Assembly (NCBI GenBank): GCA_025058835.1
Contig: JANXEI010000001.1
Location: 190,561 to 254,560 of the forward strand
Reading direction: 5' to 3'
Origin: Acidilobaceae archaeon
GTDB taxonomy: Archaea > Thermoproteota > Thermoprotei_A > Sulfolobales > Acidilobaceae
Length of the DNA stretch: 64,000 nucleotides
The notes beneath the pieces were generated by a model. It was given only the letters and a program-made list of their open reading frames with translations, was not told the DNA's origin and ran no database searches. Made by a program: the position numbers and the translations under genes. Below, in pieces: positions 7,986 to 11,572 of the stretch. Each line of letters begins with the position of its first letter. Position 1 is the first letter of the stretch.

Positions 7986-9074
7986 CTAGGCCACAAACTT
8001 CCTGATCAGGGCATAGTAGGCCGCAACGGTGAAGACTACTAGCGAAAGGACGAGGAAGAGCAATATGACGACCACTGCTGGGAACACATCGCCTATGTTT
8101 ATGTAGTAGTTGAAGTACTCCTCGATCCTCTTGCCTCCAGAGTCAAGCACCACCATATATGGGTATCGGGAGCCAGAGTTTACGATCTCGCCCGCTACTG
8201 CCACGAAGATTGCCAGGAAACCGCCGTACTTTGCATATGGGTTAATGACGCCCTTCTTTGCGTCAGAATATATCTTCGTTCCGATCCAGAGGAGAGCAAG
8301 GGCAGAGATCACCTTGACGGCAAAGGCAGGCGTGAAGAGGCCGCCGCTCCCCTGCAGCAGCTGATCTACCCTCACTAGAGCGTTGAAGACGTAGGGGGCT
8401 TCGAAGTGGAGCTGGAGCAGATACAGAGGCCCTATGACGAACTGGAGCATTAGCGGAATGAAGGCATAGGGAGCAGCTATCTTCACTCCCTTTGCATCCC
8501 CATCTAACGCCATGATAGAGACCACCATGAAGCCGCCCACAGATATGACGGCAAGCACGGTGTGGAGGTAGAGGTTCCAGTATAGGCTGCTGAAGTATGC
8601 ATCAAAGGCCCCGAAAGGCCTGTTGTCTAGGAAAGAGCCTATCGCCGTGGGGACAGTTATGTCGCTCATGAGGGCCCTGAAGCCCAGAGGTATCATGAAG
8701 CCAGAGAGGGCCATCACGAAGCCAAGGATGCTGTGGCGGAAAGGATCGATCCTACCCCAGGTGTACCAGAAGGCTGCGATTGCTGGGATCCTGATCATGA
8801 TACCTATGAGGGCTATGACGATGGGGGTAAAGAGAACGTTAGCAAACATGGCGAACAGACCGGTGAAGAAGCCCGCCATCACCACTGTTATGACGGTTCC
8901 CCAAACTCCGGAGAAGAGCTCTGTAACGGCCAGCAGCCTGAAGGCCCTCCTCGCAAAGGTCTCCAGGTAGATGTCGTTGTTCTTGTAGGCAAGGTATCTG
9001 TATATGGCTGTTATGAGCCCAGTCCCCAGAGTTACTGAGACCAGGCCTACATGAACTATGAGGCTGATGCCCAT
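7986..9074 (-). CDS. Cytochrome bd oxidase second subunit, CydA'-type
   Basis: A 362-residue polytopic protein. Its first helix (residues 3-24, with H8 followed by VSVTLG) aligns with the first helix of the neighbouring CydA (H19 and VSITLG), so the two are paralogues; this is not a canonical CydB. H171 in LYLHTVLA sits where the second heme-ligand histidine of CydA falls. It lacks the GRxPW motif and the long quinol-binding loop. CydA paired with a CydA-derived subunit is the published CydAA' form of archaeal bd oxidase. The ATG at 9074 is the first possible canonical start; upstream in-frame codons still look protein-like, so the true N-terminus may differ. Cotranscribed after cydA with a 51-base gap. 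Confidence 0.8.
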   Translation of the reverse strand: MGISLIVHVGLVSVTLGTGLITAIYRYLAYKNNDIYLETFARRAFRLLAVTELFSGVWGTVITVVMAGFFTGLFAMFANVLFTPIVIALIGIMIRIPAIAAFWYTWGRIDPFRHSILGFVMALSGFMIPLGFRALMSDITVPTAIGSFLDNRPFGAFDAYFSSLYWNLYLHTVLAVISVGGFMVVSIMALDGDAKGVKIAAPYAFIPLMLQFVIGPLYLLQLHFEAPYVFNALVRVDQLLQGSGGLFTPAFAVKVISALALLWIGTKIYSDAKKGVINPYAKYGGFLAIFVAVAGEIVNSGSRYPYMVVLDSGGKRIEEYFNYYINIGDVFPAVVVILLFLVLSLVVFTVAAYYALIRKFVA

Positions 9075-9125
9075 GATAATGAAGGCGATGGTCTCATAGC
9101 TAGCTATTTTTCATCACCCTCTCTG

Positions 9126-10769
9126 CTATTCTGCCCCGCTCCTTATAGTCTCTATGATCTTCTTCACCGACTCTGATATCTCGTCAGCCCTGCTCGCCAC
9201 GAAGACGAGCGCGGCAACTCCGCTGAGGTTGATGGCTAGGATCAGGAACGCTGCGAAGGCCACGAAGGCCGGGGAGGTGGCGTAATCGACAACGCTTACG
9301 ACCTCCTCAGGGTAGACTAGCCCGTAGACTGTCCAGGGCTTCCTGCCTACTTCCCTCACGTACCAGCCCAGCACAGAGGTGGTTGCAAAGCCAAATGCTA
9401 TCAGGGCTGCAAGGAGCAACACGAGGGACCTCCTGTTCACGAAACTGAACAGCCTGTAGATTATGGACTCGGCAAAGGAGACTATGGGCGAGAGCACTGG
9501 GATCCTCACAAGCATTGCAGCAAGTGCCACCGTGGCGATTACTCCGGTCACAGCGCTCCCTATCTTGAGGTAGTAGGCGTAGTGGACCTTGTCCATCCTC
9601 TCCCTAGCCTTCTCCAGATCCGCTAGGCAGAGGTCCCTCACTTGCGTGTTGAGCACAGCGTCCAGCCTGCCGTCGAGCTGGAGGCCAAGCTTGGAGCCCA
9701 GGTCTCTCAGCATCTTCTCGTCCACGCCCACGCTAAGCGCTACTTCCCTCACGGTCACTTTGTACTCCTCGCACTGCTTTGCATAGTGATCTAGGCCATA
9801 GATCGGGTGGTTCGGATCTCCATAGGCAAGGAGGGCCTTTATGGGGCTGTACTTCGTCTTCTCAGCCCCCTCTATGAGAGCCCACTTTGTGGGGTTATAC
9901 TTTACCACCTGCACGGCCATCTCGTGCCCTACGATGGTAGGCTGGACGAGGGAGAGGGCTAGCAGCGGGACTATGATAGCAGCTAGTAGCTTGATGTAGT
10001 ACGGGTTGCCCGTCGCGTAGTACCGATAGGCCCAGCCGAGGAGCGCTATGGAGGCACCAACTATGATGGCAGCCAACAGGTTGTGAGCTATGGAGACCCA
10101 TGCGTAGGGGCTCTTCAGAATAATGAACGGATCGTTAAGAACAATGCCTATCGTTTCTGCCACTCCTGCACCTTGCAGGATGGCCTGGAGGCTCTCCCCG
10201 CTCGCGAGGGCTATGATCTTCAAGGCCACTAGCTTCTGGGCGTCCATCGCGAGTGGCCCGTACTCTGGCATGTATGGGTAGAGGGCCTTCGCTATGGGCC
10301 CCACGCCCCACGGGGCCTGCTGCCAAGAGTTAACGGCAGTGATCAGTATTCCGGAGAACAGCGCAAAGGCCCAGTAGGCAGCTAGGATGCCAATGCTCTT
10401 CCCGGCGCTGACCCTGCCGAGGGTGACTATGAAGAGGATGAGGAGTGCTACCTCCATGGTAAACGCGATCAGCTCCAGGGCTAGGGGGGCAAGGGCCGTC
10501 GAAGCAACCACCAGGAGGGTGCCAGGCCAAACTGTTAGGAGGCCGAACTCCACAAGGGTACCAGTTATGGCTCCGAGGGCAAAGTTTATGGAGAGAACGA
10601 CGGTGGCTAGCTTGGTCGCCTTCATGTAAGTCTCGTCTCCTGTCTTCATGTAGAGGTATAGGAAGGAGATCATGGCAAGCGGGAGACCTAGTGTGATGGA
10701 GACGAAGACTCCGTGCATGTAGACGCCGAGGGCTGACAGGTTCAAGATGGCTTGCATGGCATCTGCCAC
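9126..10769 (-). CDS. cydA: Cytochrome bd oxidase subunit I (CydA)
   Basis: A 547-residue membrane protein that oxidises quinol and reduces oxygen to water. H19 in the first helix matches the heme ligand, E99 and E106 in ELIAFTMEVALL match the proton-channel glutamates, GHEMAVQVVKYNPTKWA at 281-297 is the quinol-side motif, and GRKPW is at 475-479. The segment expected to supply the methionine ligand of heme b558 reads YYLKIGS near 399-405 and I cannot find an obvious Met there. The GTG start at 10769 follows GAGGTGG. Operon with the CydA'-like gene; no CydB, CydC or CydD is nearby. Confidence 0.88.
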   Translation of the reverse strand: MADAMQAILNLSALGVYMHGVFVSITLGLPLAMISFLYLYMKTGDETYMKATKLATVVLSINFALGAITGTLVEFGLLTVWPGTLLVVASTALAPLALELIAFTMEVALLILFIVTLGRVSAGKSIGILAAYWAFALFSGILITAVNSWQQAPWGVGPIAKALYPYMPEYGPLAMDAQKLVALKIIALASGESLQAILQGAGVAETIGIVLNDPFIILKSPYAWVSIAHNLLAAIIVGASIALLGWAYRYYATGNPYYIKLLAAIIVPLLALSLVQPTIVGHEMAVQVVKYNPTKWALIEGAEKTKYSPIKALLAYGDPNHPIYGLDHYAKQCEEYKVTVREVALSVGVDEKMLRDLGSKLGLQLDGRLDAVLNTQVRDLCLADLEKARERMDKVHYAYYLKIGSAVTGVIATVALAAMLVRIPVLSPIVSFAESIIYRLFSFVNRRSLVLLLAALIAFGFATTSVLGWYVREVGRKPWTVYGLVYPEEVVSVVDYATSPAFVAFAAFLILAINLSGVAALVFVASRADEISESVKKIIETIRSGAE

Positions 10770-10870: not shown

Positions 10871-11572
10871 CTAGTCCAACGGCTTCCTTATGTTGAGGAG
10901 CCTCCTTGCCTCCTCCAGGTCCTCAGGCTTCACGTTCTCATCTATGCACATCCACCAGTCATAGCACTTGAACTTGGCCATCCTCTCCTGCGCCTCAGTC
11001 ACCGTGCTCGGCGGCGGCACTATGACGGCTCCTCCCATGATCTCGTTCTCAGGCCAGTCAGCTGGAATAGACCTCTTCATCTCATCGCTTACCTGGAAGG
11101 CCTTTATCACCCTCAAGATCTCGTTGATGTTCCTCCCGAGCTCCAACGGATAGTACAGGATGGCTCTAATGATCCCCCTCGGGTCCACGATGAAAACTGC
11201 CCTCACGGTCTTCACTCCGCCCTGCATGTGCATCAAGCCGAGGGCCTGGGAAACTTTCCCGGCAGGGTCGGCAATGATGGGGAAAGGTATCTTTATCTTG
11301 AAGGTGCTCTCTATCCACTCCACCCACTTTATGTGGGAATAGCTCTGATCTACGCTCAGCCCTATCAGCTCCGTGTTGAGCTTCTTGAACTCCTCATAGC
11401 GCAGGGCAAAGGAGACGAACTCTGTGGTGCACACTGGCGTGAAGTCGGCAGGGTGGGAGAACAGGACCAACCACCTGCCCTGGTAGTCCTGCGGGAGCCT
11501 CTTGACTCCATGTGTAGTCTCCACGAGTAGATCGGGGAACTCCTCGCCAATGCTCGGGATAGTTATGGGCAC
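10871..11572 (-). CDS. Peroxiredoxin (archaeal Prx6-type thioredoxin peroxidase)
   Basis: A 233-residue peroxidase that reduces hydrogen peroxide and alkyl peroxides. The peroxidatic cysteine is C48 in [12 protein letters not shown]. Two further cysteines, C203 and C209 (KCYDWWMC), occupy the positions of the resolving pair in the Aeropyrum pernix enzyme, which has C50, C207 and C213. Length is normal for this decameric archaeal group. GTG start at 11572. It lies upstream of the cydAA' genes on the same strand, separated by a T8 terminator, so the link with oxygen use is by neighbourhood rather than shared transcript. Confidence 0.94.

Follow-up and report, generated by a model that had tools for sequence, protein, structure and literature searches.

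The window analysed here is a stretch of 64,000 nucleotides from an Acidilobaceae archaeon. Two genes of a cytochrome bd-type oxidase, cydA and cydA', lie head to tail on its minus strand. The cydA gene has a GTG start and encodes 547 amino acids, while cydA' encodes 362. The cydA' frame is open for 12 codons 5' of the ATG at 9074, and the true start may be there. CydA matched the Pfam family PF01654 with an E value of 7.5e-59 and covered most of the profile. CydA' matched the same family with an E value of 1.7e-8 (33.9 bits, cut-off 26.2), and no other Pfam family matched either protein up to an E value of 1. A first-pass annotation, made from the letters alone, had read the locus as two CydA paralogues without a CydB gene, in the published archaeal CydAA' arrangement. 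This reading holds. Both proteins match PF01654, both carry the first-helix histidine (H19 in CydA, H8 in CydA'), and the locus is the known archaeal CydAA' arrangement.

Table 1. Genes and codons of the CydAA' locus, in positions of the window.
Feature	Position	Strand	Remark
cydA	9126..10769	-	catalytic and quinol-binding subunit; sole Pfam match PF01654
cydA'	7986..9074	-	second CydA paralogue, occupies the place of CydB
peroxiredoxin (AhpC-TSA)	10871..11572	-	upstream of cydA, same strand
CydA H19 codon	10713..10715	-	active-site heme ligand position
CydA E99 codon	10473..10475	-	
CydA E106 codon	10452..10454	-	E. coli E107
CydA H229 codon	10083..10085	-	His186 in E. coli, second axial ligand of b558
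CydA K295 codon	9885..9887	-	E. coli K252, quinol loop
CydA E300 codon	9870..9872	-	E. coli E257, quinol loop
CydA K402 codon	9564..9566	-	Met393 in E. coli, an axial ligand of heme b558 in known structures
CydA E473 codon	9351..9353	-	E. coli E445, active-site heme ligand position
CydA K477 codon	9339..9341	-	Q449 in E. coli; the GRKPW lysine, co-varying with K402
CydA' H8 codon	9051..9053	-	H19 position; His in 120/120 CydA' rows
CydA' H171 codon	8562..8564	-	H186 position
CydA' K254 codon	8313..8315	-	Met393 position; Lys or Met in 70/70 partners of Lys-type CydA
CydA' E296 codon	8187..8189	-	Glu in 119/119 rows with a letter; aligns with W469 of CydA (hhalign)

Related and competing enzymes were sought in the genome of the host, a Thermoproteota archaeon; this genome comprises 1.19 Mb in 29 contigs and is 92.65% complete. 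At this completeness it gave no PF01654 match beyond cydA and cydA', no CydB (PF02322), and no heme-copper oxidase subunit I. The control searches found CydB in 10/14 named genomes and heme-copper oxidase subunit I in 8/14. CydB was present in 0/4 archaeal CydAA' genomes versus 6/6 bacterial CydA genomes. Since further PF01654 proteins, CydB and a heme-copper oxidase were all missing from the search results, CydAA' may be the only membrane oxygen reductase of the host. The heme supply protein AhbD gave a weak match below the cut-off; it matched in 14/14 control genomes, and exceeded the cut-off in 1/14, so the match carries little information.

The smaller subunit was compared with both CydA and CydB. 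The CydA' profile aligned to the CydA profile with a probability of 99.9 (E value 7e-33, hhalign) and to CydB with a probability of 96.6 (E value 6e-10), which is a clear second similarity. CydA and CydB profiles gave nothing credible with each other (probability 5.2, E value 0.0075). The AlphaFold2 model of CydA' (pLDDT 93.7) matched CydA chains in Foldseek at 7e-10 to 1e-6 and CydB chains at 1e-5 to 5e-4, and its VIA-align Z scores with CydA chains were 35 to 39. The CydA model (pLDDT 92.7) gave Z scores of 35-43 with CydA chains. Better alignment of the smaller subunit to CydB had been named beforehand as the result that would overturn the two-paralogue reading, and the outcome was the opposite in both hhalign and Foldseek. 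CydB was thus ruled out as the identity of the smaller subunit, though the similarity to CydB is clear. With CydA as its nearest relative and CydB as the next, CydA' looks like a CydA that has shifted toward a CydB-like role.

CydA keeps the residues expected of a catalytic subunit. The active-site His19, Glu99, Glu107 and Glu445 of E. coli correspond to H19, E99, E106 and E473, the quinol-loop Lys252 and Glu257 to K295 and E300, and His186 and Arg448 to H229 and R476. The glutamates and the GRxPW motif reported in the first-pass annotation are present (E99, E106, E300 and E473), and the motif reads GRKPW. Arg391 of E. coli is replaced by Tyr in the alignment with E. coli CydA. The annotation had also remarked that the methionine ligand of heme b558 was not obvious. 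By sequence, the canonical His186/Met393 pair is not kept: the histidine is retained and the methionine column holds Lys402. Passages of three papers give His186 and Met393 as the heme b558 ligands, and Met325 in G. thermodenitrificans (PMC6853902, PMC8585947, PMC8324918); Met325 and Met346 are named for other species in a passage of the last (PMC8324918).

As the argument turns on a single column, its alignment was examined by several routes. Four MAFFT alignments placed K402 in the Met393 column. With a profile of 20 relatives, the Lys column matched the methionine of both 5doq and 9r2g without gaps. The profile alignment to E. coli bd-I introduced a one-residue insertion, so that the Lys column fell on R391, and in the profile alignment to bd-II the whole helix was displaced, a much larger shift. 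A single-sequence phmmer alignment set a Pro on Met393 and the stretch around M411 near it. These E. coli profile and phmmer alignments, in which no Lys falls on Met393, count as evidence against Lys402 as a ligand. We explain them as pairwise slips in a stretch that the variable Q-loop borders. The MAFFT result was preferred because bacterial CydA rows reading VHYAFQIMVGCG link E. coli LYFAFRIMVACG to the window VHYAYYLKIGSA with no gaps. E. coli residues 388-400 were ungapped in 190/196 rows, the other six being four actinobacterial and two truncated rows. Since the MAFFT alignments with relatives agree with the 5doq and 9r2g profile alignments, we consider an alignment artefact unlikely.

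The distribution of the lysine was followed in CydA rows that are a sample among the matches listed, plus 29 places added by choice. An earlier alignment reduced 251 CydA frames to 196 rows by collapsing on the last 150 residues. It included the window and E. coli and excluded frames shorter than 300 amino acids or at 60 bits or less. The final alignment held 223 CydA rows, including the four actinobacterial rows with Leu393 and the two truncated rows. Residues 186/393 were His/Lys in 70 rows, His/Met in 140, Met/His in 7 and His/Leu in 4, and were unreadable in 2. All 70 His/Lys rows are of the CydAA' type. Among the 123 sampled CydAA'-type CydA, position 393 is Lys in 70 and Met in 53 and nothing else, and His186 is retained in 123/123. 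A proper alignment, which the first-pass annotation thought might recover the methionine, thus places no Met at this site in the window, and Lys occupies it in 70/123 CydAA'-type CydA. The CydAB rows are His/Met with Gln449 in 57/57.

A second lysine accompanies the first. Lys449, the Lys of GRKPW, was found in 70/70 Lys forms versus 1/53 Met forms of the sampled CydAA', counts that cover related sequences and correspond to about four independent switches. The 53 Met forms vary at residue 449, with His (15), Gln (13), Tyr (11), Leu (7), Val (4), Asn (2) and Lys (1). An unsupervised scan of all window columns ranked 393 first and 449 second; it preceded the addition of the last 27 rows and compared 62 Lys-type with 34 Met-type and 57 CydAB rows. 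The third-ranked column, E. coli 183 (Ser versus Thr), separated the groups clearly less well.

A tree of 135 rows was built with the trait columns removed, 3 short rows dropped and 8/57 CydAB rows as outgroup. It required at least four Met/Lys switches among CydAA' rows, and also four for Lys449; the trees were quick LG+G4 trees in which long branches were flagged. A paired sign test on a smaller tree comprised 3 independent pairs, a number with which significance is out of reach. One Met group, consisting of Caldisphaera, Hestiella and Acidilobaceae rows including locus L121, is nested inside a Lys clade. L121 combines Met393 with Lys449 and looks like the half-way state of a reversal. That Met forms might go with acidophiles (Caldisphaera, Hestiella, Vulcanisaeta, Thermoplasmata) and Lys forms with neutrophiles is, given about four switches, only an idea suggested by the habitats of these groups. 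Two further groups lie outside this pattern. In family f4 of the same order, seven CydA-like rows have the inverted pair Met186/His393, and the four actinobacterial CydA-like rows have His186 and Leu393 and are without the quinol-loop Lys and Glu.

Taken from these sequences, the reading we prefer is that the heme at the b558 site is probably held by His229 and Lys402, in place of His and Met, in those CydAA' branches where Lys402 always occurs with Lys477. Because the Met to Lys change recurs across many archaea and a second lysine comes with it, this may be a natural His/Lys membrane heme. Three ligand-capable pairs (His/Met, Met/His and His/Lys) occur at the two positions, which is most easily explained if both bind iron. 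The pattern favours ligation by His229 and Lys402 over a lost heme. The effect on heme content that the first-pass annotation expected stays a conjecture, and a change of ligand fits the pattern better.

In known bd oxidases, electrons pass from quinol at the Q-loop to the low-spin heme and then to the two active-site hemes. We infer that in the Lys form Lys402 would act as an axial ligand, that the heme would stay low-spin and that electrons would flow in the same direction. Quinol would be oxidised by CydA at the Q-loop (K295/E300), its electrons would enter the low-spin heme at the b558 site and move on to the two hemes at the H19/E99/E473 site, and O2 would be reduced at that di-heme site, with CydA' standing in for CydB as partner. 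Replacing Met by Lys should shift the potential of the entry heme, and the accompanying Lys449 might compensate for a propionate or an altered helix packing. Excerpts from a study of transmembrane cytochrome bc1 describe an engineered His-Lys heme b that is low-spin and functional, with a potential raised by 50 to almost 160 mV upon the change from His to Lys (PMC4807273). An excerpt on one TsdA places the His/Lys form about 400 mV below the His/Met form (PMC6879331). From the bc1 rise and the TsdA difference taken together, a fall in the potential of the entry heme appears the more likely effect of going from His/Met to His/Lys.

The most serious alternative is that Lys402 is no ligand at all. 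The heme would then be five-coordinate through His229 or water-bound, and Lys402 and Lys477 would retune it by salt bridges to propionates or acids; a buried Lys could indeed be paired with a heme propionate or an acid instead of iron. The paired appearance of the two lysines suits such an electrostatic role. CydA' also has a Lys at the matching fold position, in 35/70 cases as Lys/Lys with no His opposite, so a Lys can occupy this place in the fold without an obvious His-bound heme. Against this, none of the 123 CydAA' and 57 CydAB rows has a non-ligand such as Leu, Ala or Gln at residue 393, and the seven rows with the inverted Met/His pair suggest that 186 and 393 switch as a ligand pair. 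The actinobacterial Leu393 rows show that a non-ligand residue at 393 does occur in the superfamily. On balance we regard a purely electrostatic lysine as unlikely, while giving it real weight.

It is slightly less probable still that this is an ordinary CydAA' with nothing new about it, the Lys form being either functionally silent or already covered by the CydAA' publication or the alignments in it. The arrangement itself has indeed been published (Murali 2021). Against a prior description, no report of a Lys form at the Met393 position was found among the matches listed when the open literature was searched by titles and abstract openings, a scope that Murali 2021 lies outside. A different side chain replacing Met as axial ligand, such as H282, M284 or M411, is very improbable: H282 and M284 are common in Lys-type CydA (frequencies 0.90 and 0.87) and phmmer sets the M411 stretch beside E. 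coli Met393, but Met-type rows often have H282 and M284 too (0.47 and 0.68), so that neither is tied to the switch, and M411 lies outside the H/M/C/K/Y columns conserved in the Lys type.

The His229/Lys402 reading of CydA raises the matter of the second subunit. In hhalign, CydA K402 pairs with CydA' K254 and CydA H229 with CydA' H171. The E99 and E107 positions hold A88 and R95 in CydA'. E296 was considered as the equivalent of E445 and dropped, as hhalign sets it on W469, one helix turn before E473, and not on E473 itself. CydA' residue 254 was compared in 120 rows; an earlier, smaller comparison had left out 7 CydA' frames without a classified partner. In the 70 partners of Lys-type CydA it is Lys in 60 and Met in 10. 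The 50 CydA' paired with Met-type CydA are mixed at this residue, with Ala (10), Asp (9), Phe (8), Ser (7), Asn (6), His (5), Ile (2), Gly (1), Thr (1) and Lys (1), and this sole Lys254 comes from the Met393/Lys449 operon. The 171/254 pairs of the Lys types are His/Lys in 25, His/Met in 10 and Lys/Lys in 35. The ten His/Met rows are candidates for a second heme in relatives, in place of the His/Lys of the window. A His/Lys or His/Met CydA' would permit a second heme, and the Lys/Lys cases argue against this as a general rule. A pseudo-symmetric enzyme with two low-spin His/Lys hemes (H229/K402 in CydA, H171/K254 in CydA') is a doubtful proposition. If true, it would mean four hemes per heterodimer and a CydA' that carries electrons and is not a mere stand-in for CydB.

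CydAA' itself is already known; computed here were the subunits, the absence of CydB, the conservation of catalytic and quinol residues, and the Met to Lys change with its co-variation and repeated switching. According to excerpts of the 2016 bc1 study, its authors knew of no natural Met or Lys axial ligand in integral membrane hemes and expected natural His-Lys and His-Met membrane cases to turn up (PMC4807273). The His/Met case has since been provided by bd oxidases. A candidate for the natural His/Lys case would be the Lys-type CydAA', seen in 70 sampled archaeal CydA, for which the related His/Met forms serve as internal controls. Swaps of one or two residues make it possible to test ligand choice, heme potential and perhaps pH adaptation.

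Among known systems the closest is CydAA' of Caldivirga maquilingensis, reportedly described by Murali, Gennis and Hemp in 2021; their abstract is said to give it quinol oxidase activity with b-type hemes only. The two share an archaeal origin, adjoining cydA and cydA' genes, and retained quinol-loop Lys and Glu and active-site His and Glu in CydA. Locus L264 is, we presume, a Caldivirga-like CydAA', and the comparison with Caldivirga proposed in the first-pass annotation was run on it. L264 is a Met form and the window a Lys form: CydA of L264 has His/Met and GRVPF, whereas CydA of the window has His/Lys and GRKPW, and CydA' residues 171/254 are Ala/Asn in L264 and His/Lys in the window. As L264 is a Met form, biochemistry on the Caldivirga enzyme would have missed a Lys ligand. 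The characterised CydAA', of the Met type if L264 is Caldivirga, may thus not represent the larger part of the sample (Lys in 70/123).

E. coli bd-I and bd-II (CydAB and AppCB) share with the window the CydA fold (Z 39-43), K252/E257, H19, E99, E107, E445 and R448. In contrast to them, the window has CydA' for CydB, Lys for Met393, Lys for Q449 and Tyr for R391. The Rhodobacter capsulatus bc1 mutants, as excerpted, offer a His-Lys heme b between transmembrane helices, which is what is predicted here; there a His of a bis-His site was replaced in the laboratory, whereas the change in the window is natural and replaces Met (PMC4807273). Heme 2 of TsdA, again from an excerpt, resembles the present case in having His/Met and His/Lys as alternatives within one family with a large difference in potential, but TsdA is a di-heme thiosulfate dehydrogenase and no bd oxidase, and its ligand switch is redox-driven and takes place within one enzyme (PMC6879331).

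The CydA' profile matched that of CydA with an E value of 7e-33 and that of CydB with an E value of 6e-10 (alignments A3, A4 and A5). In the same kind of profile comparison, the CydA and CydB profiles gave no credible match to each other. Judged by these profiles, CydA' may be a bridging form in the way CydB originated.

The near relative L038 and four other loci show the same order of peroxiredoxin and cydA genes as the window. Because the frame upstream of the cydA' ATG at 9074 stays open for 12 codons that lack a usual start codon, and 8/12 of these codons match L038, a rare upstream start codon for cydA' is possible.

Genes, regions and loci of relatives bearing CydA-like genes
Feature	Position	Strand	Remark
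Peroxiredoxin gene	10871-11572	-	directly upstream of cydA in the window
cydA' start region	9030-9125	-	open frame upstream of ATG
cydA'	7986-9074	-	used in profile comparison
L075, L077, L080, L081			Terraquivivens, Aigarchaeota, Geocrenenecus records; peroxiredoxin upstream of cydA
L017-L021, L023, L024, L026-L030			quinol-loop Glu257 lost in CydAA'-type CydA

The quinol-loop residue Glu257 (E. coli numbering) was lost in 28/96 CydAA'-type CydA rows, among forms with Lys and with Met at the position of heme b558 ligand Met393 alike, and was replaced by Val, Thr, Ala, Leu or Ser. Six further rows had Ile in place of Lys252. The CydA-like proteins of four loci in actinobacterial genomes (L220, L225, L226 and L228) lack both the quinol-loop Lys and Glu and have Leu at position 393; therefore, they are probably not quinol oxidases.

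Lys-type and Met-type CydAA' operons were found together in one genome (L007 in G065; L073/L155), where the Lys-type cydA match contains one internal TGA. In the host genome of the window, heme-copper oxidase subunit I was not found and the heme b synthase AhbD gave only a weak match.

An inverted b558 ligand pair, Met186/His393, was observed in the CydA-like proteins of L143-L146 and L148-L150. No CydA' or CydB was recognised within 400 bases of these genes. The seven loci belong to family f4, from the same order as the window host, and are probably from Sulfolobaceae.
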